Virus record (IMG/VR): IMGVR_UViG_3300046467_002861
Location: 1 to 21,706 of that record
DNA from: a virus
Strand: one strand, 5' to 3'
Length of the DNA: 21,706 nt
In this document: in pieces, positions 4,124 through 20,285 of the stretch
How the letters are laid out: each line of letters begins with the position of its first letter
Position numbering within the stretch: position 1 is the stretch's first letter
Program-made: the position numbers and the translations under genes
The notes under the pieces: generated by a model
Databases searched by the model: none
What the model was told of the DNA's origin: nothing
What the model saw: only the letters and a program-made list of their open reading frames with translations

Positions 4124-4404
4124 GATTTTCCCGTTCTTTCTTTATTCCTTTTCTTGACCTTGAGCTTTCTTTTTTTTTGTAAATCTATTGTAGTTGGCTC
4201 AGGATAAAATTGTTGAACATCTGGTGTCAGAGGTGTTGGGAAAGGGATGCCTGCGTTATGTGCTTGTCTTCGAGCCGCTTCTTCTGGTGGCATATAACTT
4301 CCGCTGCCCGTGTATATGAGTCCTTGGTCATAGTGTGCGCCGCCTCCGGTGCTTCCTATGTTTGATCCGGCTTCTAAGTATTGTTTGAAGTTTAGTAGTT
4401 CCAC
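4120..4404 (-). CDS. Small Gly/Pro-rich protein with basic tail, unknown function
   Basis: The GTG start at 4404-4402 overlaps the end of the ArfB-like gene by 13 bases, with GGGGG six bases upstream. The 94-residue product starts with the leader-like peptide MELLNFKQYLEAGSN, then a Gly/Ser/Tyr-rich stretch (about 15-37), a Pro-rich middle and a strongly basic C-terminus (LQKKRKLKVKKRNKERTGK). The basic tail could bind nucleic acid. The leader resembles those of its operon neighbours. There are no enzymatic motifs. It ends in ATGA overlap with the next gene. Function unknown. Confidence 0.55.
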   Translation of the reverse strand: MELLNFKQYLEAGSNIGSTGGGAHYDQGLIYTGSGSYMPPEEAARRQAHNAGIPFPTPLTPDVQQFYPEPTTIDLQKKRKLKVKKRNKERTGKS

Positions 4405-4841
4405 CTTTGCCCCCGTTCAGATTTTCTTTGTGACCGCTGTTTTTTCTTTCCAATTCTTTTTTCAACTGAGCTAGTGGTTGGGCCGGTCGTTCGTCTTTCT
4501 ACGGGTTCTTTTAATGCTTCTTCAATTGCCCTTTTCAGTTTACCAACACACGCTTCTTTGTTTTGTCCTTGACTTCTTTGTTCTTGGCAATCGGCACGGA
4601 AGTGCCCTTTATTGCTTATTTTATTGGCGGATAAAAATCGGTTTAGTGCTTCTTGGTTGTTGTGCCAGACAACACTGCTTTTGACGTGCCAAGACAGAAC
4701 TGCTTTTGAGGCCGTCTTATTTACTTTTTGTCCACCGGGTCCACTGCTTCGCACGAATGAAAAATTTAATTCTCCCTCAGGCAGGGTTAGGTTGCCAATT
4801 TCTATGCTTTCACTAATTAACAGATATTTTTTGAAGTCCAT
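4392..4841 (-). CDS. ArfB/YaeJ-like peptidyl-tRNA hydrolase (GGQ release-factor domain)
   Basis: This 149-residue protein carries the class I release-factor catalytic domain without codon-recognition domains. SSGPGGQKVNKTASKAVLSW spans 32-51, with the GGQ at 36-38. The pattern D-x-Q-x-x-RSQ-x-x-N and the basic tail KKKQRSQRKSERGQRW match ArfB/YaeJ/ICT1, in which the tail enters the empty mRNA channel. By family it hydrolyses peptidyl-tRNA on ribosomes stalled at mRNA ends, and its length matches ArfB. It differs in having a leader-like N-terminus, MDFKKYLLISES, before the domain. The ATG has AAGGA eight bases upstream, and the gene overlaps the metalloprotease-like gene by 29 bases and the next gene by 13. 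It may rescue host ribosomes late in infection, or be packaged in the virion; the latter is inference. Confidence 0.88.
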   Translation of the reverse strand: MDFKKYLLISESIEIGNLTLPEGELNFSFVRSSGPGGQKVNKTASKAVLSWHVKSSVVWHNNQEALNRFLSANKISNKGHFRADCQEQRSQGQNKEACVGKLKRAIEEALKEPVERRTTGPTTSSVEKRIGKKKQRSQRKSERGQRWNY

Positions 4842-5400
4842 CTTCTTGTCCTTTTAGTTCAGGATGTTTGTCCTGAATTCTTTTCATATTTTGTTTGGCC
4901 CAGTTCATGAATTCTCTTTCGGCTCTTTGTGGGCCTACTTCGCTGGTCTGACCAGTTTCCTCTCGTTCCATTTCATGTGTGCATTCGTGAACTATGGTTG
5001 CCGCTATTTGCAGAACAGCATCTAAATCGGTTTTTGACTCTTTAACTATTCGGTTTATGTTGACGTGAACAGTGTCGCTTTCTTTAATTCGTTTTTCATC
5101 TATCTCAGGGAATTGTTGCTTAATAACAGACTTAGGAAGTAAGTCGATGGTCTTTGGATCTATATGTTTCTGATCAAAAATAAATTTAGCATTTGTAGGG
5201 AGAACTTTTTTATTTTCACCTGAGTTGTAAAGGCCATAAGCTCCGCTGGCTAAATTTGCAATTGTAGAGATATTATTTAATAATTCTGGTTTATATTCAC
5301 GTACCAATTCTACAGATATATGGGCTTTATCGTATAATCGATCTATTTCAGCCTCATCTACTTCTGTATCTTGTTTGCCAAACCAGTTTTTAAATTCCAT
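4813..5400 (-). CDS. HExxH metalloprotease-like protein
   Basis: First gene of the minus-strand cassette, 195 residues, with AAGGAT just ahead of the ATG. The diagnostic motif is HECTH at 138-142 in a helix (IAATIVHECTHEMEREE), matching the zincin HExxH zinc site. Downstream acidic residues (E154, or E161 in RAEREF) could be the third ligand. The N-terminus MEFKNWFGKQD resembles those of the next three genes. The middle region (about 70-120) is mixed alpha/beta, and there is no signal peptide. A small zinc peptidase acting in the infected cell or in the virion is plausible, but catalysis is inferred from one motif. The following gene starts inside its 3' end (29-base overlap). Confidence 0.6.
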   Translation of the reverse strand: MEFKNWFGKQDTEVDEAEIDRLYDKAHISVELVREYKPELLNNISTIANLASGAYGLYNSGENKKVLPTNAKFIFDQKHIDPKTIDLLPKSVIKQQFPEIDEKRIKESDTVHVNINRIVKESKTDLDAVLQIAATIVHECTHEMEREETGQTSEVGPQRAEREFMNWAKQNMKRIQDKHPELKGQEDGLQKISVN

Positions 5401-7646: not shown

Positions 7647-8690
7647 GTGAGTAACTATGAAAAACTAAATATTGGTGACATTAATCAGGAATCGAGTCGG
7701 CTATCTGCCGATGGGCAAAATAGTAATAATTTTTTAAACAATTTTGTTCGCATGCCTGAAGGAAATGGCGCTGTCACCTTGAGATTTCTACCGCCTTCTA
7801 AGGGGTCTAGTTTTTATTGTGCGACTAGAACACATAGAATGAATGGTCGTAACGTACATTGTCCGAGAGAACTTGAAGGCGCCAGATGGCTCGGCCAGTG
7901 TTCGGTTTGTGAATATTATAATTGGTTGTGGAGAGAGTCGGAGAAGGATGGCGTTAGTGCTGATGAAGCAGACGCTTTTCAAACTAAGGCTCGTTCTATT
8001 AAGCCGATTGAGAGATATTACTATAACGTCATAGTACGTTCTCAAATTGGTGCTAATGGAGAAACTGAGGAAAATGTTGGTCCTAAGATTTTTTCATGTG
8101 GCAAGACTGTTCACAAAATGATCATTCGTGCTATTGTGGGCGATGAGGAACTTGGCGAGTCTCCGTTGGGTGACATTAGTGACTTGGTGGAAGGTCGTGA
8201 TTTTAAATTAATTAAGAGAATGAGAAAATCAGGATCTCAATCTTATCCTAATTATAACGAATCCAAGTTTCTTGAGCCTTCTCCCCTTGGCACTAAAGAT
8301 AGTGCGAAAGAATGGCTTGCGGGACTTCATGACCTTTCTTCTCTTCGAAGCTTAAAGACAGAAGAGGAGCTTAAGCATGAGCTTAAGATGTTCCTTGGAG
8401 TAGCACAGGAGAACGCTTCTAGTGGGTTTGATCCTTCGGAGTTTAAACTTGAAGGCGCACCGACTATTACTCTTCCCGTGCCTGATTCAATGAAATCTCA
8501 AGAAGGTGCAGGTGCGACGAGTGTTGAGACCGCACCTTTCCCCGTGTCTGATTCAGTGAAGGCTGAAGAGGATGTGAGCGAATCTAGTCCGACATCGGAG
8601 GAAGTAAAAGCGTCATCTGATGATGGCGGGGAAGATGATGAGGTTTTAGCCGATGATGACTTTCTTAAAGAGTTAAGAAGTTTAGGATAA
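7647..8690 (+). CDS. Single-stranded DNA-binding protein, T4 gp32-like
   Basis: The product has 347 residues from a GTG with GAGG eight bases upstream (7635-7638). After a short N-terminal arm, the core (about 30-230) contains VTLRFLPPSKG and a zinc-type cluster: H71-C72, then C85-x2-C88 in WLGQCSVCEYYNW, with C58 and H63 nearby. This matches the zinc-stabilised core of T4 gp32. A serine-rich linker with two similar copies of P-V-x-D-S-x-K follows (about 276-310). The tail is strongly acidic and ends EVLADDDFLKELRSLG, as in gp32, where the tail binds partner proteins. By family it coats single-stranded DNA and works with UvsY, UvsX and the helicase. It has its own promoter and terminator. Confidence 0.85.
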   Translation: MSNYEKLNIGDINQESSRLSADGQNSNNFLNNFVRMPEGNGAVTLRFLPPSKGSSFYCATRTHRMNGRNVHCPRELEGARWLGQCSVCEYYNWLWRESEKDGVSADEADAFQTKARSIKPIERYYYNVIVRSQIGANGETEENVGPKIFSCGKTVHKMIIRAIVGDEELGESPLGDISDLVEGRDFKLIKRMRKSGSQSYPNYNESKFLEPSPLGTKDSAKEWLAGLHDLSSLRSLKTEEELKHELKMFLGVAQENASSGFDPSEFKLEGAPTITLPVPDSMKSQEGAGATSVETAPFPVSDSVKAEEDVSESSPTSEEVKASSDDGGEDDEVLADDDFLKELRSLG

Positions 8691-8816: not shown

Positions 8817-9023
8817 ATGGATAAAGATTATCTTATTTTATCAATGCAAAATGGACTTTGCCTTGTTGAAAAGTTTTGTTGTATATGTCAGCACGATAAA
8901 ACATATTGGATTCCTTTAGATGATTTGGGATTTAATCCAATTAAACCTTGTCCTGATTGCAGTCGTTATGTTTCTATCATTGATACTTTAGGCGAGATAA
9001 TAAATGGCGAAGAAGAAGAATAA
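8817..9023 (+). CDS. Small zinc-ribbon protein
   Basis: The 68-residue product has two cysteine pairs, FCCICQ (20-25) and PCPDCS (44-49), spaced as a treble-clef/zinc ribbon. An acidic C-terminus EEEE follows. GGGGAGGG (8797-8804) lies twelve bases before the ATG, which is somewhat far; an overlapping five-codon ATG frame at 8807 is nearer to it. Its last 20 bases overlap the start of the recombinase gene, so the two are co-translated. Probably a small nucleic-acid- or protein-binding accessory; the exact role is unknown. Confidence 0.65.
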   Translation: MDKDYLILSMQNGLCLVEKFCCICQHDKTYWIPLDDLGFNPIKPCPDCSRYVSIIDTLGEIINGEEEE

Positions 9024-10233
9024 AGCAGACGCACTGGCTGGACAGGACGTTCTCGATTCTGCATCGCTCGCCAACGACCCAGTAGCCGATCTGTTTTCAG
9101 ACCTTGCTGCGGAAACGGGCGGCAGTGTTTTAGATGACATAGATAGTATTAAATATTTTGTGGACACTGGGAACTTAGCAGTTAACTTTGTTTGCAGCGG
9201 CAGATATATAAATGGCGGAGTTCCTGGCGGCAGACTTACAGAGATATATGGTCCGGCTTCGTCAGGCAAATCTCTCATTGCTACTAATGTTATTCGGGGC
9301 TGCCAGAAGCTTGGTGGGTTCCCAATATATTTAGATTGTGAAAACACTATAAACAAAGATTTTGTCCAATCGGCTAGTCATGTCGATGTATCTAAAGTTA
9401 TTAGATACACCCCCCAGACATTGGAGGAGGTGTTTACGAAAGTCCACACGGTAATCAAGAAGGTTAGATCGGTTAAAGGCATAGAGGTTCCCATAGTAAT
9501 TGTATATGACTCTATTAGTGTGTCGCCTAGTGCTAGAGAATACAGAGAGGTTGACCTTCCTGAAGGCTACACAGATGCTGATTGGAAGAGGATTGTTGGT
9601 GGCAAGGAACAACCTGGCGAGCGTGCCAAGATTTGCAGTCGGGAGTTTAGAAAGTTGACTCCTATATTGGAAGAACAGAATGCAACTATGGTTGTGGTTA
9701 ATCAGACTCGTGAAAAAATAGGCGTTATGTTTGGTAGCCCTGAAACGACAGGAGGAGGGGGCAATGCGTTGCCTTTTTACGCTTCATGTCGTATTAGAAC
9801 TCAAACTCAAAAGAAAATTGAGAATTCCAAGATCGGGTCTATTGTTGGAATTAATATGAAAATTAAAAATGTGAAAAATAAAACTTTTCGGCCTTTCATG
9901 GAAACCGAAAATGTTCAACTTTATTTTGATCGTGGTATAAATCCACTTTCTGGTCTTTTAAATACTTTGATTATGTCTGAGAGAATTGATGTAAGCGGTA
10001 AAGGAAGTTTTACTGTTAAAGAGCCTTGGGCCGCAGGCGAGGAGATTAAGTTTAGAAGTAGCATGGCTCGTAATGATGTACCGGAAGATGTTTTATATCG
10101 GTGTCCTTCCTTGATCGATGCCGAGTCTAAAGAACAGGTGAAAGATTACTTGTCGGAGTATCAGTTGGCCATTCATAGAGAAGATGCTAAAGATTTAGAA
10201 GAAAAAGAATTAAAAAGCGAGGAGGATCTTTAA
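9004..10233 (+). CDS. RecA/UvsX-type recombinase
   Basis: This 409-residue strand-exchange ATPase has Walker A GPASSGKS at 83-90, the catalytic glutamate in DCEN (E113) and Walker B IVIVYD at 164-169. The signature VNQTREKIGVMFGSPE with TTGGGGNALPFYAS at about 232-261 corresponds to the RecA Walker-B-distal and L2 region. The N-terminus is lysine-rich with an acidic helix, and the C-terminus is acidic (EEKELKSEEDL), as in RecA, where it regulates filament growth. It forms filaments on single-stranded DNA for homologous pairing and recombination-dependent replication, with the gp32-like and UvsY-like proteins. It resembles both RecA and UvsX, so an exact symbol is withheld. The start lies inside the zinc-ribbon gene, and the stop shares a base with the next ATG. 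Confidence 0.93.
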   Translation: MAKKKNKADALAGQDVLDSASLANDPVADLFSDLAAETGGSVLDDIDSIKYFVDTGNLAVNFVCSGRYINGGVPGGRLTEIYGPASSGKSLIATNVIRGCQKLGGFPIYLDCENTINKDFVQSASHVDVSKVIRYTPQTLEEVFTKVHTVIKKVRSVKGIEVPIVIVYDSISVSPSAREYREVDLPEGYTDADWKRIVGGKEQPGERAKICSREFRKLTPILEEQNATMVVVNQTREKIGVMFGSPETTGGGGNALPFYASCRIRTQTQKKIENSKIGSIVGINMKIKNVKNKTFRPFMETENVQLYFDRGINPLSGLLNTLIMSERIDVSGKGSFTVKEPWAAGEEIKFRSSMARNDVPEDVLYRCPSLIDAESKEQVKDYLSEYQLAIHREDAKDLEEKELKSEEDL

Positions 10234-11001: not shown

Positions 11002-12030
11002 ATGGATATGAGTGATGATTATTTGGGATTCGATTACAGCAGACGTTTTGGTGTTGAGATTGAATTGAATTCGCTGGACGGACGCAGCAGACCGCTGGTA
11101 AGGGGGAATCCTGTTGGTTCCGATTATGTTGCTAATTTAATTTCTAGATCTTTAAGTAAAACTGTAGAAATAGCCAAATGGCATCATACTCATAATAACG
11201 AATTCTGGATTGTTAAGCCTGATTCGAGTTGTGGCATAGAGGTCTGTTCTCCTGTTTCTAAGGGGTGGAAAGGTCTTAAAGACATATGCCGTGTTGTTGA
11301 AGGGTTTTCTAATGATGAGTTAATTGTGGCGGATGAGAGGTGCTCTTTACACGTTCATGTTGAAGTGGCGGATTTGTCAGAGAGGGAGTTGGCCTCGGTT
11401 TTATATTATTGGATCAAATGTGAGCCGGTTTTTCTTGATTCGGTTCCTCACGAGAGAAAGAGTAATCGTTATTGTCAGTTTATAGGTTTGACTGATTTAA
11501 TTGAACATGATGCGGAAATGTCTCCATCTCTTCTTATTTCTAGGTTAGGAAATGTAAAATATTATTCTTTAAATACTTATCACCTCAAGAAGGGGAAACG
11601 GGAAACTATAGAGTTTAGGATTATAGGAAATTCGGGGTGTCTTGACCCATTTTTGATTAAAAATTGGGTTAGGCTTATTGTTCATTTCATCAATGTAACC
11701 AGCAAAATGGGAATCCCCGGTCATTATGTAGAGGGAGATCCGTGGTCGTCTTTTTTGTGGCTAGATGCAAAAGACGTTTTTAGGTTATTGGGATTTTGGG
11801 ATAGCAATAAGACTCTAACAGAAGGTGTTAAGCAAACTAGGGATTGGTTTTTAGCAAGATTAAAGAAGAATGGTTCTCTATTAGACTGTGATGGGTTTTG
11901 GAGTACGCATTCTAGATTTGTTTCTAATTCTCAAGTTTCTGAGATGTTTTTAATACTAGGATTAGGTGAGATTAATAAATTATTATCTCCAGTAGGGGGA
12001 GATCTTATTTATTCTAAGAAATTTATTTAG
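11002..12030 (+). CDS. Amidoligase family enzyme (COOH-NH2 ligase)
   Basis: The 342-residue product shows the conserved blocks of the amidoligase (Amidoligase_2, glutamine-synthetase-like) fold. These are FGVEIEL at 16-22 (metal-binding glutamates), VKPDSSCGIEVCSP at 71-84, CSLHVHVEV at 114-122 (histidines), KYYSLN at 186-191 and TIEFRI at 202-207. By family it uses ATP to form amide bonds between a carboxylate and an amine, in peptide or cell-wall modification. The substrate cannot be read here. The length is usual for the family. There is no clear Shine-Dalgarno before ATG 11002, although ATG 11008 is also in frame. It is divergent from a putative regulator across a palindrome and is followed by small unknown genes that may be partners. 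Confidence 0.8.
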   Translation: MDMSDDYLGFDYSRRFGVEIELNSLDGRSRPLVRGNPVGSDYVANLISRSLSKTVEIAKWHHTHNNEFWIVKPDSSCGIEVCSPVSKGWKGLKDICRVVEGFSNDELIVADERCSLHVHVEVADLSERELASVLYYWIKCEPVFLDSVPHERKSNRYCQFIGLTDLIEHDAEMSPSLLISRLGNVKYYSLNTYHLKKGKRETIEFRIIGNSGCLDPFLIKNWVRLIVHFINVTSKMGIPGHYVEGDPWSSFLWLDAKDVFRLLGFWDSNKTLTEGVKQTRDWFLARLKKNGSLLDCDGFWSTHSRFVSNSQVSEMFLILGLGEINKLLSPVGGDLIYSKKFI

Positions 12031-13593: not shown

Positions 13594-15615
13594 ATGCCAG
13601 CGATTATTAAGCTTGGAGACCAAAATGAGTTAATCGCAGCTAGAGATTTCCCTGATTATGCTAATTTTTCTTTTGATGAATTTAATCCTGTTCAATCAAG
13701 AGCTTATGAGATTTACGATAGGGATTGTAACGCCATAATAGCCTCTTCAACGTCTTCTGGCAAAACGGCGATAGCAGAGATGTTTCTTAGCAATGAAGTG
13801 CGTGAGAGAGGCGGCAAGGGCCTTTACTTGAGTCCTCTGAAGGCATTGGCACAAGAAAAGATTGACGATTGGTCGTCTGATGATCACCATTTTAAAGATT
13901 TGAAGATTTCTATTTGCACAGGTGATTATCGCATAACTGAAGATCGCAAAAAAGAGTTGGCTGCTGCAAATTTAATATTAATGACGAGTGAAATGCTCAG
14001 TCATAGATGTCGCAATCATAAATCAGAGGGAAATAGCTTTCTTTCTGAAGTTGGGACTTTGGTTGTTGATGAATTTCATCTTATAGGAGTTGATGGTAGA
14101 GGGGATCACTTAGAAGCAGCATTGATGAAATTTACAGAAGTTAATCCAAACATTAGACTTGTGTTTTTATCTGCTACGATGCCAAATGTGGATCAAATTG
14201 GGGAATGGGTAAGTTACGAATTAACAAAAAAAGAAACATATTTAATTGAATCTTCTTATCGGCCTTGTCCTTTAACTATCCATTATGAGAAATGCTATGA
14301 TGGTGATAAAAAATATGAGGATAGAGAGCTTCAGAAGGTCGCTCACGCCCTACAGATCGTAGAAGACTACCCAGATGACAAGTTCCTTGTGTTTTCTCAC
14401 ACCAAGCGAACTGGGCGACATATGAAGACGGCCCTTGAGCGTGCAGGGATTAATTGTGGGTATCATAATGCGGATTTGACAAAAGCTAAAAGACTCAGAT
14501 TAGAAAGGGACTTTAAGGAAGATCCAGACCTTAGAGTTTTGGTTGCCACATCAACAGTAGCGTGGGGATTAAACTTACCGGCTCGTCGTGTTGTAATCTT
14601 GGGGGTTCATCGTGGTTTGAGCCAAGTAGAAAATTATGACATTCAACAAATGTCAGGTCGTGCAGGTCGCCCAAAATATGATCCGTCAGGGGATGTTTAT
14701 ATTTTAATTCCTGAGAGTAAGGCGGATCATTATGTAAAGAAATTAAATAGGAAACAAAATATTGAATCACAAATGCTTGACACTTTAGGTGGTCATCATA
14801 AAATAATGGCTTTTCATGTAGTAAGTGAAATCCATCATGGAAGTATAAGGAATAAAGATGATTTTCGTGACTGGTACGCCAGAAGTCTGGCTGCATTTCA
14901 GTCGATGCAATTAGATGATGATGTTATTGATCAATTGGTTGATTTGTTATTAAAAAAAGGAATTATTAGAGAGCATGAAGGAGAATACAAGGTCAATGCG
15001 GTAGGAAAAATATCTAGTATGTTTTATTTTGATCCTTTTGATGTTGCTGATCTTAGAAGGAATTTTTCTAGTGTATTTGAAAATAATAGACAGGATAATG
15101 ATTATGCAATTTCAATGGCTCTTGCTAGTGTGGAGTCTTGCAAGCTTGGCATAGTTAGTAAAAATGAAGAAGAAGAAATGGGGCCTTTTTCCGCTCGTAT
15201 AAGGAAAATGTTTGGAAATATTAAAAAGCCTGTCATAAAAGCAGCTTATGCATATCACCTTTTACTTAAAGGCTTGCCCAGTCAGACCTTTAACCCGTAT
15301 ATGAGAGGGCTTCAAATGGACTTTCCTCGTCTGGCAACGGTTTTGAAGTCGATTGATTCCATGAGTGCAAAGTGGGACCAAAAAGAGTGGTTGGGAAATC
15401 TTCAAACTAGAGTTGTTTATGGGGTGGATGATTATTTGGTTGGCTTATGCAATCTTCCTCATATTGGAAAGGTTAGAGCAAATAAACTTTGGAATTCCAA
15501 TATAAGATCTTATAGAGATATTGTTAATAAATCTTCTCTCGTAAGTAAAATTCTTAAATTAGATGACAATAAGATCAAAGAGGTGATTCATAAGGCTAAG
15601 TCTCTATATAAGTAA
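13594..15615 (+). CDS. Hel308/Ski2-like SF2 DNA helicase
   Basis: ATG 13594 is chosen over TTG 13564: it starts just before the conserved domain and has GGGGGTG nearby. The 673-residue product has all SF2 motifs: Q-type FNPVQSRA (about 30-37), Walker A SSTSSGKT (51-58), DEFH (159-162), SAT (193-195), FSHTKRTG (267-274), motif V STVAWGLNLPARR (about 320-332) and motif VI QMSGRAGRP (352-360). A helix-hairpin-helix at the end (LCNLPHIGKVRANKLW) and a winged-helix-like middle match Hel308/HelQ and Ski2-like enzymes. Such helicases move 3'-5' and act on forks and recombination intermediates. In a phage it may support recombination-dependent replication. Ski2-like RNA helicase activity cannot be excluded. 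Confidence 0.88.
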   Translation: MPAIIKLGDQNELIAARDFPDYANFSFDEFNPVQSRAYEIYDRDCNAIIASSTSSGKTAIAEMFLSNEVRERGGKGLYLSPLKALAQEKIDDWSSDDHHFKDLKISICTGDYRITEDRKKELAAANLILMTSEMLSHRCRNHKSEGNSFLSEVGTLVVDEFHLIGVDGRGDHLEAALMKFTEVNPNIRLVFLSATMPNVDQIGEWVSYELTKKETYLIESSYRPCPLTIHYEKCYDGDKKYEDRELQKVAHALQIVEDYPDDKFLVFSHTKRTGRHMKTALERAGINCGYHNADLTKAKRLRLERDFKEDPDLRVLVATSTVAWGLNLPARRVVILGVHRGLSQVENYDIQQMSGRAGRPKYDPSGDVYILIPESKADHYVKKLNRKQNIESQMLDTLGGHHKIMAFHVVSEIHHGSIRNKDDFRDWYARSLAAFQSMQLDDDVIDQLVDLLLKKGIIREHEGEYKVNAVGKISSMFYFDPFDVADLRRNFSSVFENNRQDNDYAISMALASVESCKLGIVSKNEEEEMGPFSARIRKMFGNIKKPVIKAAYAYHLLLKGLPSQTFNPYMRGLQMDFPRLATVLKSIDSMSAKWDQKEWLGNLQTRVVYGVDDYLVGLCNLPHIGKVRANKLWNSNIRSYRDIVNKSSLVSKILKLDDNKIKEVIHKAKSLYK

Positions 15616-15641: not shown

Positions 15642-17789
15642 ATGACACTTAAAGATTGTTGGGATTGTTGTGAATGTCCGACCTCATGCGAGGGGGAGTG
15701 CACATGGACTTATCATTGTGACGATCCGCCTGAGTGTGATTGTGCAGATGGAAACTGCATATGGACTTGGGTAGGTTGTGCGTGTATGCAAGGTTCTTGT
15801 GAATGGTCATGGGTTACAGGGGACGATAATTATGGGTCGTGGGTAGAAAATAATTCATGTGGCACGATGTGCTCTGGATGCTCATGTACTTTTGACGACA
15901 TGACAAATGGGAGCCAACCTGGTACCGCAGATCCTCCGAACACCGGCGTCATGCAGGTATTTACTGGCACCTGCGGGGGCACCCCAACCGATTCCAGTTG
16001 GGATCTAACAGATAACTGCATTGGCACCTGTTCGCCTGGAGCGAGTGGCCTTGAATATTGCGAATGTACTGGCGAACCTACGGTCGATGGTGCATACGAT
16101 AATGAGGAGCACATGGGCTATTGCGGTTTCGCCGGACAGGATCCATATAATCCATCCGATGGGCCATGTTATTGGGAGCTTACAACTGATTGTGGGGAGA
16201 CTAATGATTCCGGTTGTCAATGTGCCAGCAAAACATGCGACTGGACATGGACGCTGTCTGGTTTAGAGTGCAATGGCGTGTGTCAGTACAATCCCCGAAC
16301 TGGAAGCATTATGTCCGGCTGTGATTCAGGTTGTGATTGCCCGGAAAAAGTTGTCAAGACGTGTCCCGGGAAGTGTACTTACTATTGGAGCGGATCTGGA
16401 TGGCCCTATTATTGGTGTGATCCCCAGGTGACAGGCGTAGATACGACCAATTGCGGGTGCGATTGTTTTGACCAATGGACTGTGGAAGAATCTTATCAAT
16501 GCAATGTTGGCAGGCCGAATACGAACTTAGCGAACACGCCTAATACTTACCCTTGCACCGCCCAGAATGGCAATGCCACTTTCTGCGTGGATTATGATAT
16601 CACCTGCTCTGGGTATGAGGAATTCTTGCCCTGTGAAGATCCTAATAGTAGTGGAACTTGGATTCAGACAAGTGATTGTGATTGTGAAAATTGTACGTGC
16701 CCTGATCCGCCAGGTCAGCTTTCTCCTACTTCTGGTGATGGCTCCACGTTGACAACTCATTGCTCTGGTGTAGGCACATCGGGGACGGCCACGATTAACT
16801 GCGATTGTGATATACCGATTGCCTACACCAATGATTGCCTCGCAGGGCAATGTAATTATACAGGCTCTGGGGGGGTTTATACATATTCCAGCGACAACTG
16901 CGATCCTGGATGTGGTTGTCCAGAGGCATCAACTGTTACCTCATCAACGGTAGCATGTGTTGATGCCAATGCTGGTGGTTATGAGGATGAGGAAACAGCA
17001 AGAACTCCTTGCTATGGTGGCCCGTGTGACACATCTAATTCTGCTTGTTGCGCTCCAGGCGAATGTGAATATATTTGGGATGCTTTTTTAAACACATGGG
17101 ATCTCGATTCGGGTTGCAATGGCATGTGCGAGTATGATGACTTCCGGGGTACTCTCTCTGACTCTTCGCAATGCGATAACCAGCGGTCTACAACCTGTGG
17201 ATGCCCGGACCCTGAACCGTTGCCATCGTGTCCCGGGGTGTGCAAGTATCGCTGGCTCTCCTCTCATTCCCGATGGGCGCAGTGGGGTGGTTCTTGCGAT
17301 TGCGACTTTAATATGATGTCGGGCTGGCGATACTCAATTTGTTGGCCCGCTCCGTCTACGGACTTAGCGAACACGCCCGGTGTTTACTCGTGCGGCCAAC
17401 AGTCGTGCGTGGACGTTGCCGTCACCTGCACTGGGTATGAGGAATTCTTGCCGTGTGAGGGCGGTGAGGATACTTGCACCGGAGCGTGTACAGATCCTGA
17501 TGTGGACTGCGAATGCCATGAGCCAACTTACAATGGCACAACCTATCAAGAACCAGGCCAAGGGTCTTGTATGCCTGTCGTCACTACAGCAGCGTTATCT
17601 AATAGAACTTTTGGTCTTTCTAGTAAGATCCCTCGGATTAGGAATAGTCGTGAGGAGATCAGGAATTCATCAGCGCTTAAGGTCACCAGAAAAGGAGTTT
17701 CTAAAGTTTATTTAAATGTAAAAGCTATTAAAAGAAAAAGGAGGGCAATGGCCCTAAAGGTCGCCAGTAGAAGACAGAGGATGCGATGA
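15642..17789 (+). CDS. Giant cysteine-rich repeat protein
   Basis: The 715-residue product has about 80 cysteines (roughly 11%), many Trp, Tyr, Gly, Asp and Thr, and few Lys until the end. Recurring units of the form G-x-C-x-[WY]-x-W, then C-x3-C-x-C-P run through most of it (CTWTYHC, CDWTWTL, CTYYWSGSGW, CEYIWDAF, CKYRWLSS). A larger duplicated block contains TNLANTPNTYPC...CSGYEEFLPC and TDLANTPGVYSC...CTGYEEFLPC, about 275-280 residues apart. There is no signal peptide. The last 75 residues lack cysteine and are strongly basic (KRKRRAMALKVASRRQRMR). The interior is clearly more GC-rich than the flanking genes. A disulfide- or metal-stabilised surface or fibre protein is possible, perhaps matured by the coupled C39-like peptidase. 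Function unknown; real coding is very likely. Confidence 0.8.
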   Translation: MTLKDCWDCCECPTSCEGECTWTYHCDDPPECDCADGNCIWTWVGCACMQGSCEWSWVTGDDNYGSWVENNSCGTMCSGCSCTFDDMTNGSQPGTADPPNTGVMQVFTGTCGGTPTDSSWDLTDNCIGTCSPGASGLEYCECTGEPTVDGAYDNEEHMGYCGFAGQDPYNPSDGPCYWELTTDCGETNDSGCQCASKTCDWTWTLSGLECNGVCQYNPRTGSIMSGCDSGCDCPEKVVKTCPGKCTYYWSGSGWPYYWCDPQVTGVDTTNCGCDCFDQWTVEESYQCNVGRPNTNLANTPNTYPCTAQNGNATFCVDYDITCSGYEEFLPCEDPNSSGTWIQTSDCDCENCTCPDPPGQLSPTSGDGSTLTTHCSGVGTSGTATINCDCDIPIAYTNDCLAGQCNYTGSGGVYTYSSDNCDPGCGCPEASTVTSSTVACVDANAGGYEDEETARTPCYGGPCDTSNSACCAPGECEYIWDAFLNTWDLDSGCNGMCEYDDFRGTLSDSSQCDNQRSTTCGCPDPEPLPSCPGVCKYRWLSSHSRWAQWGGSCDCDFNMMSGWRYSICWPAPSTDLANTPGVYSCGQQSCVDVAVTCTGYEEFLPCEGGEDTCTGACTDPDVDCECHEPTYNGTTYQEPGQGSCMPVVTTAALSNRTFGLSSKIPRIRNSREEIRNSSALKVTRKGVSKVYLNVKAIKRKRRAMALKVASRRQRMR
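16601..16637. repeat. Copy 1 of a near-identical 37-base coding repeat in the cysteine-rich gene
   Basis: It matches 17423-17459 with two differences, and encodes TCSGYEEFLPC. Identity even at third codon positions over 21 consecutive bases (16610-16630) points to recent duplication or gene conversion. A second shared block, ACTTAGCGAACACGCC, occurs at 16525-16540 and 17362-17377. Confidence 0.75.
17423..17459. repeat. Copy 2 of the 37-base coding repeat in the cysteine-rich gene
   Basis: Partner of 16601-16637, offset by 822 bases, a multiple of three, so both are in the same frame. It encodes TCTGYEEFLPC. Confidence 0.75.
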
Positions 17790-18427
17790 GTCGAAATATT
17801 AGGTGGGCTTATTTTGTTCTTTCTTTAATTTCTGGGATTGTCATTTATAATGAAATTTCAAAACCTGTTTATCCTGATAAATGTTTTATAAGTAAATTTC
17901 CCCTAATAAAACAATTGGATCAAATAAGTTGTGGTCCGGTTGCTGCTACTATGTTATTGAATTTTTATGGGGAAGAAGTAAAAGTATCTAAAGTCAAAAG
18001 CAAGACTAAAACCAAGTGGTTTAGTTATAAGGGGGAAGAAGTTGGAATGACCTCGCCAGACTATATTGCTGAAGCTTTAAGTCATTATGGGGTTTATTCT
18101 GTTGTTAGAAAGAGTGATTTGGATCATGTTAAATTATATGTGTCGGAGAATAGGCCTCCTATATGTTTGATACGGAGTTCCAAGACTACGTGGCATTATG
18201 TTGTTGTTGTGGGTTATAATGATGAAGAGACTATCTTCTTGGCAGATCCAGTAGAGGGGAAAATAATAATGATGTCTCAATATGATTTTGTTGAAGCTTG
18301 GAGCTTTAATCGTGATATGTTTGGAAGAAAAATAAAACCTCCAGATTTTATTGGAGGTTTGTTGAGGTTAGCAGATGTTAGCAATTATACTTTAATTGTT
18401 CCAATGCATGCAAATGCTGCTGGATGA
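17786..18427 (+). CDS. Membrane-anchored C39-like cysteine peptidase
   Basis: The 213-residue product starts MSRNIR, then a hydrophobic segment (WAYFVLSLISGIVIY, 7-21), giving a signal anchor with the rest outside the cytoplasm. The catalytic domain has LDQISCGPVAATMLLNFYGE (44-63, nucleophile C49), WHYVVVVGYND (136-146, H137) and LADP (152-155, D154), as in the C39/papain-like fold. C39 enzymes of bacteriocin exporters cut after Gly-Gly-type leaders; free C39-like proteins have varied or unknown substrates. The ATG overlaps the stop of the cysteine-rich gene as ATGA, so the two are made together, making that protein a candidate substrate or partner. It could instead help host lysis or act on the cell envelope. 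Confidence 0.75.
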   Translation: MSRNIRWAYFVLSLISGIVIYNEISKPVYPDKCFISKFPLIKQLDQISCGPVAATMLLNFYGEEVKVSKVKSKTKTKWFSYKGEEVGMTSPDYIAEALSHYGVYSVVRKSDLDHVKLYVSENRPPICLIRSSKTTWHYVVVVGYNDEETIFLADPVEGKIIMMSQYDFVEAWSFNRDMFGRKIKPPDFIGGLLRLADVSNYTLIVPMHANAAG

Positions 18428-19051: not shown

Positions 19052-19321
19052 TTCAATAAAAACTGGAGTATGTATTCCCATATAAGCGGACACAACATTA
19101 AATTCCATCCATTCTATAGCCTCTTCATGCGACATGCTTTGGTTCATTAGTGTTTGGATGCATTTGTCGTAACTATAAGTCACGACTGGCGAGCTTCCTG
19201 CTTTTCTGCAAATGCCTATAATGGCATCATCAAATCCGTCTGCAAATAAGGCTTCTGGATTTTCTTCTTCCATTATATCTTTTATATCTTTTATTTCATT
19301 TATTTCATTTATTTCATTCAT
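19040..19321 (-). CDS. Small conserved-looking phage protein of unknown function
   Basis: The ATG at 19321 overlaps the upstream gene by eight bases (ATGAATGA), with GGAG of that gene serving as ribosome site. Of 93 residues, the first 16 are a low-complexity repeat (NEI three times, KDI twice). The rest is a compact domain: ENPEALFADGFDDAIIGICR, then VVTYSYDKCIQTLM, then EEAIEWMEFNV and GIHTPVFIENPI. I recall similar short proteins in many phage genomes but know no function. Coupled with 19314-19580. Confidence 0.65.
   Translation of the reverse strand: MNEINEINEIKDIKDIMEEENPEALFADGFDDAIIGICRKAGSSPVVTYSYDKCIQTLMNQSMSHEEAIEWMEFNVVSAYMGIHTPVFIENPI
19275..19319. repeat. Five tandem 9-base units inside a coding region
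   Basis: Two ATATCTTTT units (19275-19292) are followed by three ATTTCATT[T/C] units (19293-19319). They encode, on the minus strand, NEI-NEI-NEI-KDI-KDI at the N-terminus of the small phage protein. Unit number can change by slippage without breaking the frame. Confidence 0.8.
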
Positions 19322-19580
19322 TTTTTTCTTCTCCGAAAAATCCTTTGGGGTATTCCATTTTTACAACTCCATTATTATTTGTTTTTTCTCCTGTTTCAGC
19401 ATCTTCCGTCCACCATCTTACTTGTTGAATTTCGATTCCCAATTCCTCCATGTGACACTTATCTTCGGGAGAGACAGGCATATTATATCGCTCTCCTTCG
19501 TGCAAAACGGTTATTTTGCATCTTTGTTCGGAGGATTCGTATAATCTACAATTGCCGCAAATTTTCTTAACTTTATTCAT
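19314..19580 (-). CDS. Small cysteine-containing (zinc-binding-like) protein
   Basis: The 88-residue product starts MNKVKKICGNCRLYESSEQR, followed by another cysteine (RCKITV) and one near residue 42 (EDKCHMEEL). The four-cysteine set C8, C11, C21, C42 suggests a zinc knuckle. The C-terminal half is acidic with WWTEDAETGE and ends GFFGEEKNE. It is the first gene of a two-gene minus-strand unit, with the next ATG overlapping its stop. A plausible accessory phage protein of unknown role. Confidence 0.65.
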   Translation of the reverse strand: MNKVKKICGNCRLYESSEQRCKITVLHEGERYNMPVSPEDKCHMEELGIEIQQVRWWTEDAETGEKTNNNGVVKMEYPKGFFGEEKNE

Positions 19581-19691: not shown

Positions 19692-20285
19692 ATGGTAAAT
19701 ATTGTAGGGTTTGCAGGCCAGATGCAGAATGGAAAGGATACAGCGGCAGATTATCTGTTTGAAAAAATTAAATTTAAATGGGCGGATGCAGAGCGAGCGT
19801 CTTTTGCTGACAATGTTAAACGAATATTTTGTGAGACTTTTAATGTAGATCGCTCTTTTGTGGAAGAGTGGAAAACAAAGTCAGAAATTCCTGAAGGTTT
19901 TGATTCGCCGGTGAGACAGGGCTTGCAGCAGATCGGTGATGGGTTTAGAAAAATTCAGGGCAAAATTTGGATAGAACTTGCTTTTAGAGATAGGGTAAGA
20001 TCTGCAATATTTTCTGATGTAAGATATATTAATGAGCTTAAAAAGATTAAAGAAGTTGGGGGAACAACGGTGTTGGTGTGGAGGCCAAGTCACGAGAATG
20101 AGGACCCTAATGGTTCTGAAGCTCAAATAAAGCCATTGGTAGATTGGTTTGCATCACACCCGTGTTCGCTCCCTGCCCCTCATCGGTCGCCAGAGGGTGC
20201 TGAGTATGTTGACCATTTTTTAGTAAATGATGGATCGATAGAGGATTTGTATAGAAAAGTAGACGATATTGTTTTGAGTTTATAA
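19692..20285 (+). CDS. Deoxynucleoside monophosphate kinase, T4 gp1-like
   Basis: The 197-residue product has a P-loop near the start, GFAGQMQNGKDTAADYL (6-22, with K15), close in form to the GVKRSGKDTTADF of T4 gp1. Later, VLVWRPSHENEDPNGSEA and FLVNDGSIEDLYRKVDDIV match the gp1 C-terminal pattern (VRPG, then TNDGSLEELFSKI). By family it phosphorylates dNMPs to dNDPs for phage DNA synthesis. GGGAG lies about nine bases before ATG 19692. The leader is duplicated upstream. The stop shares a base with the next ATG (TAATG). Confidence 0.85.
   Translation: MVNIVGFAGQMQNGKDTAADYLFEKIKFKWADAERASFADNVKRIFCETFNVDRSFVEEWKTKSEIPEGFDSPVRQGLQQIGDGFRKIQGKIWIELAFRDRVRSAIFSDVRYINELKKIKEVGGTTVLVWRPSHENEDPNGSEAQIKPLVDWFASHPCSLPAPHRSPEGAEYVDHFLVNDGSIEDLYRKVDDIVLSL

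Follow-up and report, generated by a model that had tools for sequence, protein, structure and literature searches.

The cysteine-rich gene of the viral sequence analysed here is a lineage-specific version of a fast-changing huge-phage gene found at a fixed locus in many of these phages, and the C39-type peptidase encoded next to it, probably membrane-anchored, belongs to a separate family that adjoins the cysteine-rich gene only in the closest relatives of this phage. The proteins encoded at this locus, hereafter called slot proteins, form an undescribed family of cysteine-rich huge-phage proteins that was found in the present analysis. Both ends of these proteins are shown to be kept, the N-terminus as a Cys cluster and the C-terminus as a basic, probably helical segment; the intervening body is replaced, expanded or shuffled. 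As the best explanation, to which we assign a probability of about one half, we propose a display slot whose product combines a conserved tail with a variable body, the C39 peptidase being independent of it.

The window, i.e. the whole stretch of 21.7 kb (21,706 nucleotides) that was analysed, is an IMG/VR virus fragment with T4-type replication genes. The features referred to below are the following:

538-2073: DnaB-like helicase
7647-8690: gp32-like gene
9004-10233: UvsX-like gene
13597-15615, plus strand: Ski2/Hel308-like DEAD helicase (phrog_6819), marking the 5' border of the slot
15642-17789, plus strand: Cys-rich protein, slot protein of the window's genus, 715 aa, 81 Cys
15642-15713, plus strand: conserved Cys-cluster head MTLKDCWDCCECPTSCEGECTWTY, 24 aa, 88% identity to relative L002 and 56% to relative L003
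15714-17567, plus strand: body of hypervariable, mosaic sequence containing CxWxW and CxCP motifs
16584-16636, plus strand: internal direct repeat copy 1, 53 nt, 85% identical to copy 2
17406-17458, plus strand: internal direct repeat copy 2
17568-17789, plus strand: basic C-terminal tail, conserved (83% identical to L003 across 66 aa) and containing a KVYLN motif
17786-18427, plus strand: C39-like cysteine peptidase with putative N-terminal hydrophobic anchor
17930-17932, 18194-18196 and 18245-18247: predicted catalytic codons of the peptidase (Cys49, His137 and Asp154)
19314-19580, minus strand: small CGNCxLY Cys protein, at which the variable slot commonly ends on its 3' side
19692-20285, plus strand: deoxynucleotide monophosphate kinase-like gene (Pfam DNMK 2.7e-08), next conserved neighbour

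Elsewhere in the window, an Amidoligase_2 family protein (11002-12030, plus strand; Pfam 2.2e-10) is encoded between recombination genes. A 149-aa ORF on the minus strand (4392-4841) contains FVRSSGPGGQKVNKTASKAVLSW, a GGQ motif resembling the ribosome-rescue factor ArfB, and is kept in the relatives L023 and L026; a 195-aa ORF on the same strand (4813-5400) has a metalloprotease-like VHECTHE motif, and a Pfam search with it gave no match.

A variable slot 3' of the helicase gene

The helicase (Pfam DEAD 8.9e-28, Helicase_C 1.9e-15; phrog_6819 5e-62) was used as an anchor and led to 80 loci on contigs of up to 527 kb, in addition to the 595-kb uncultured phage LR756511. In most relatives the order is helicase, variable gene or genes, small CGNCxLY protein and dNMP kinase; some carry glycosyltransferase or methyltransferase genes inside the slot, and some carry other genes there. 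Under thresholds of our own choosing, on which the counts of the family rest, at least 24 of the 34 helicase clusters with a complete slot possess a Cys-rich, hypervariable and basic-tailed slot protein without a C39 neighbour, and inspection suggests that several of the remaining ones hold a Cys-rich slot protein as well. A Cys content of at least 6% together with at least nine K+R among the last 40 residues, thresholds of the same kind, is found for 36 out of 211 distinct slot ORFs and for none of 613 other ORFs from the same loci. When the family profile was scanned without recourse to the helicase, members adjoined the helicase in every testable case inspected. The family is not represented in Pfam, PHROGs, NCBIfam or PDB, a search of INPHARED yielded no member except LR756511, and we found no paper on a Cys-rich family of huge phages in the open-access literature.

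Members of the main family begin with a head of the type CxPP[FY]...GTGG[WF]CGCNCxCCPP, followed by a linker that can be of low complexity (poly-Ser, PPT, TQG or TPTP repeats), a beta domain and finally a tail of the type LNKxxLxxRIKKxRR. The beta domain is predicted with a pLDDT of about 90, and no fold match in PDB or among viral folds was obtained at E<=0.001. Most slot genes are oriented against the helicase. How unevenly the parts evolve can be seen from a set of five related loci, where identity is 64-79% between the helicases and 57-86% over the last 14 residues of the slot proteins, compared with 10-29% for the bodies, one of which is wholly different.

Several loci deserve separate mention. 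The slot proteins of L104 and L115 have very long TQG or PPT repeats, possible stalks, ahead of the common beta domain and basic tail. In L116 (10795-12072, minus strand) a basic ISINRELLLRKVKRRR motif precedes the Cys cluster, so that the order of tail and head is apparently swapped, and a DXD glycosyltransferase gene adjoins the slot protein. By eye, a small thioredoxin-like ORF (MAIEATEKNFAEHTQEGVVILDFHA and similar) lies near and downstream of the helicase in L047, L107 and L111-L114, which are without a Cys-rich slot protein. Finally, an insert of about 1.05 kb splits the helicase gene near query residue 146-159 in L135, L139 and L140 (e.g. L140 8313-9367), as expected for an intron or intein.

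The cysteine-rich protein of the window as a slot protein

The cysteine-rich gene starts 26 bp after the helicase stop codon, directly 3' of it. Its 715-aa product contains 81 Cys (11.3%) and 23 Trp, 13 Cys falling within the first 60 residues and 15 K+R within the last 40; it therefore shows the make-up of the slot proteins, i.e. a Cys-cluster N-terminus, at least 6% Cys and at least nine K+R in the last 40 residues. The Cys content of the larger genes of the window is far below this value. The count agrees with the initial annotation, which had described about 80 cysteines in 715 residues arranged in repeated units; CxWxW and CxCP motifs are indeed present, but the repeats are irregular and the body is a mosaic rather than a regular array. 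The attribute "giant" given there is relative, slot proteins elsewhere having about 200-700 aa.

In comparison with slot proteins of the LR756511 type, the window protein shares the locus, the Cys-cluster N-terminus, the hypervariable body and the basic C-terminus, whereas it lacks the GTGGWCGCNC head and the beta domain and has CxWxW repeats instead; moreover, its gene runs with the helicase, against the orientation of most slot relatives. The family profile (A6) found no match in the head or body by hmmsearch. Homology of the heads was rejected, as the head HMM scored the window protein no better than shuffles, and with the tail HMM 308 of 1000 shuffles scored as high. Profile-profile comparison (hhalign) yields a single weak tail-to-tail match, correctly placed, of KGVSKVYLNVKAIKRKR with KGAKGYLNIAKLMERVNRLKRR (P=5e-4, probability 31%). 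A KxYLN motif with basic follow-up, chosen after this match had been seen, is present in 12 of the 42 tails of the family, compared with 4 of 1365 other ORFs and 72 of 20000 shuffles. The window protein is thus a positional and architectural counterpart of the slot proteins; sequence homology to the main family is suggested for the tail only.

Searches of Pfam, PHROGs, NCBIfam and PDB with the cysteine-rich protein gave no match. Two profiles run on bacterial and archaeal genome contigs confirmed no homolog of the body, the profiles having been seeded with patterns that distant relatives could escape. There is neither an apparent signal peptide nor a double-glycine leader. A structure prediction from a three-row alignment is unusable (pLDDT 32) except that a helix is predicted in the tail at residues 684-714 (pLDDT 65-77). 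Late expression from a T4-type late promoter was considered and dropped: the sequence TATAAATA is absent upstream of the gene, and its occurrences in the window are not above chance.

Close relatives were retrieved with the peptidase as query, which led to three contigs (95, 85 and 37 kb) that belong to one related species. On all three, both genes and their overlap are kept, and this conservation shows that the 715-aa ORF is coding. A fourth contig, L002, contains a 758-aa open version of the Cys-rich protein and ends inside the gene. Between the window and the related species, DNA identity amounts to about 93-94% on the helicase side and about 93% on the peptidase side, whereas the Cys-rich DNA aligns in patches only. 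At the protein level, the identity to L003 is 56% for the head, 34% for the body and 83% for the tail. Duplication and shuffling are indicated by internal direct repeats, both those of the window and a 57-nt pair in L003 (91% identical). In the 95-kb relative (L024, 6086-11024), three adjoining ORFs resemble by eye PrkA, DUF444/YeaH and SpoVR, a bacterial trio.

The abundance of cysteines could also be read in terms of metal or redox chemistry, with clustered CxC, CxxC and CC motifs binding Zn, Cu or Fe in the reducing cytoplasm. CxC and CxxxC spacings are numerous, and the head motif CGCNCxCC of the slot family would suit such a role. However, the number of Cys (57-90) and their spacing vary strongly among relatives, the 23 Trp stand in CxWxW contexts, low-complexity stalks occur in the family, and the Pfam search revealed no known metal-site signature; we judge metal binding to be very unlikely.

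The base composition raises a different question. GC3 is 0.456 in the body of the Cys-rich gene compared with 0.25-0.37 in other genes, 0.35 in its tail and 0.25 in the peptidase gene. The increase is limited to the window's genus – in the slot family, 10 of 44 members exceed their helicase – and the notion that the gene is foreign by composition throughout the family was rejected. The deviating GC3 of the body and its very low identity between close relatives would still be compatible with a weakly constrained insertion, i.e. a locus tolerating foreign sequence and a body devoid of conserved function. Against this reading, long open frames and high Cys are found in all close relatives, the same make-up recurs at the slot, and dN/dS of the C-terminal tail is 0.24, which indicates purifying selection; it appears highly improbable.

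The C39 peptidase and its pairing with the cysteine-rich gene

The ATG of the peptidase gene overlaps the TGA of the Cys-rich ORF as ATGA. The encoded protein of 213 aa consists of the C39 domain only, without fused transmembrane or ATPase domains, and exceeds the curated cut-offs of PF13529 (E=6.6e-14, 53.1 bits versus 24) and PF03412 (E=4.5e-13, 49.6 bits versus 22). Basic residues precede its N-terminal hydrophobic stretch. With a Kyte-Doolittle value of 1.33 over 19 residues, the stretch of the window's enzyme is modest, and those of the orthologues are stronger (1.65-2.48). The oxyanion Gln43 as well as C49, H137 and D154 are invariant in six C39 homologues. Judged from its sequence, the peptidase is an intact, probably membrane-anchored C39-type enzyme, and its predicted catalytic domain probably faces outward, outside the cytoplasm.

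Among known enzymes, FapD (NF058616), FilB (NF050078) and the PA2778 family (NF033920) resemble the phage enzyme most in organization: they are stand-alone and exported, with a single C39 domain, the Cys/His/Asp set and no ABC transporter. The phage enzyme scores far below the NCBIfam curated cut-offs of all three (14.9 bits versus 330 for the FapD profile), has an N-terminal anchor that looks uncleaved, and is not accompanied by fap or fil partner genes. Homology with the C39 domains of ComA (3k8u; E=2.9e-08) and PCAT (4ry2) extends over the catalytic domain; in contrast to these, the phage protein has no transporter or ATPase domain, and its predicted catalytic domain lies probably outside the cytoplasm rather than in the cytosol. 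A double-glycine leader in the substrate characterises the bacteriocin-processing subgroup and is not shared by all C39-like enzymes.

Anchored C39 orthologues (35-46% identity), all with a hydrophobic N-terminus and intact motifs, occur in at least six further huge-phage lineages, and in none of them does a Cys-rich gene of the slot type adjoin. Conversely, slot proteins outside the window's closest relatives have no C39 neighbour. In two long contigs the genes are about 130-330 kb apart: the helicase slot lies near 264 kb and the C39 gene at 397 kb in a 527-kb contig, and at about 67 kb and about 395 kb, respectively, in a 436-kb contig. LR756511 (595 kb) has a slot protein and only non-anchored C39s, which are 58-78 kb away. 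As most contigs are fragments, a gene missing from one of them counts for little as evidence. Since the pair separates beyond close relatives, the coupling of C39 and Cys-rich gene is a feature of the window's genus.

These data bear on the proposal in the initial annotation that an anchored C39-like peptidase, translationally coupled through ATGA, matures the Cys-rich protein at Gly-Gly sites. The coupled gene itself was confirmed, including its overlap in the related species and its active site, though the anchor stretch is modest in the window. As to synteny, the pair stands together in close relatives and apart in further lineages; the annotation had named precisely such a separation as evidence against it, and outside the closest relatives this is what was found. 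Of the quoted sites, AGGYED is ATGYED in the related species and EGGEDT is missing there; a comparison of the window with L003 revealed no clearly conserved Gly-Gly site. Because of this and the lineage-specific pairing, maturation by the adjoining C39 is not supported. A more general version, in which the Cys-rich protein would be cut by the anchored C39, at Gly-Gly or elsewhere, while it is exported or assembled, in a FapD-like manner, could draw on the conserved overlap, the intact catalytic residues and the fact that, among stand-alone C39s, the best curated leads (PA2778, FilB, FapD) are of the exported or periplasmic type, FapD being a periplasmic C39 protease required for the secretion of Fap amyloid (PMC5557850). 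Yet in other lineages the orthologous anchored C39s are remote from the slot or without a Cys-rich neighbour, slot proteins exist without an adjoining C39, and no leader or signal for such a route is apparent in the Cys-rich protein; a dedicated substrate-peptidase pair is therefore quite unlikely. Instead, the C39 peptidase is probably an independent FapD-like enzyme of the same phages with its own substrates in the envelope, and its co-expression with the Cys-rich protein may be incidental or a recent recruitment.

Proposed function of the slot proteins

The slot protein is probably a disulfide-rich surface display protein on the virion or the cell envelope. A role at either surface, as already considered in the initial annotation, is compatible with the hypervariability, the Cys richness and the low-complexity stalks. 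The display model also draws on the fixed locus, the internal duplications, the well-predicted beta domain and the glycosyltransferase or methyltransferase genes in the slot of some relatives. According to this model, the display slot is the fixed place directly 3' of the helicase gene in a huge-phage lineage. Since slot proteins apparently lack a signal peptide, they would be synthesised in the cytoplasm and come to the outside carried on the virion or once the cell has lysed; there, the cysteines would form disulfides. The conserved basic tail would attach the protein to a conserved partner in the virion or envelope, and the variable body, diversified by module shuffling, would contact the host or the environment. 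In the window's genus alone, the peptidase gene is part of the same operon, and the enzyme would be made together with the Cys-rich protein without being an obligatory maturase. Several points count against display. The slot is surrounded by replication genes and not by structural genes, some relatives have other genes in it, and the window gene differs from most relatives in orientation; in addition, the window protein gave no usable fold, the beta domain of the family has no fold match, and sequence homology of the window protein to the main family is no more than suggested.

The same neighbourhood of early or replication genes, together with the co-transcription with a presumably envelope-anchored peptidase in the window's genus, would fit a non-virion protein that is released into or onto the infected cell and acts in superinfection exclusion, envelope remodelling or host surface binding. 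We consider this unlikely: a signal peptide is missing, and a conserved tail onto which bodies are swapped is more typical of virion appendages.

As far as the mode of action is concerned, display would be comparable to T4 Hoc and other hypervariable capsid decoration or fibre proteins of phages, which carry a variable display body on a conserved attachment part; similarity in sequence or fold between these and the slot proteins was not found. The location of T4 hoc beside uvsW was rejected as a positional parallel, because hoc is located on the opposite strand, 5' of uvsW, and the window's helicase, which falls into another PHROG, is not the orthologue of T4 UvsW.

Going further, we tentatively consider the display slot as a single site for cassette-like exchange of disulfide-rich display proteins. 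Bodies of unrelated origin, namely beta domains with Ser/Pro/Thr stalks or CxWxW Cys repeats, might be swapped onto a conserved tail that acts as docking tag for a conserved partner in the virion or envelope; the outcome would be a rapidly changing host-contact or serotype determinant without a described relative.

With the present analysis, the tempting but unsupported story of a dedicated peptidase-substrate pair is removed. Very large phages are abundant, and little is known of their host-contact proteins. A single recognisable locus with a hypervariable Cys-rich protein, present on contigs of up to 595 kb, offers a handle on them: it can be read out of any genome of this kind, comparison of its variants with the hosts becomes possible, and the tail of the slot proteins is a candidate docking tag.
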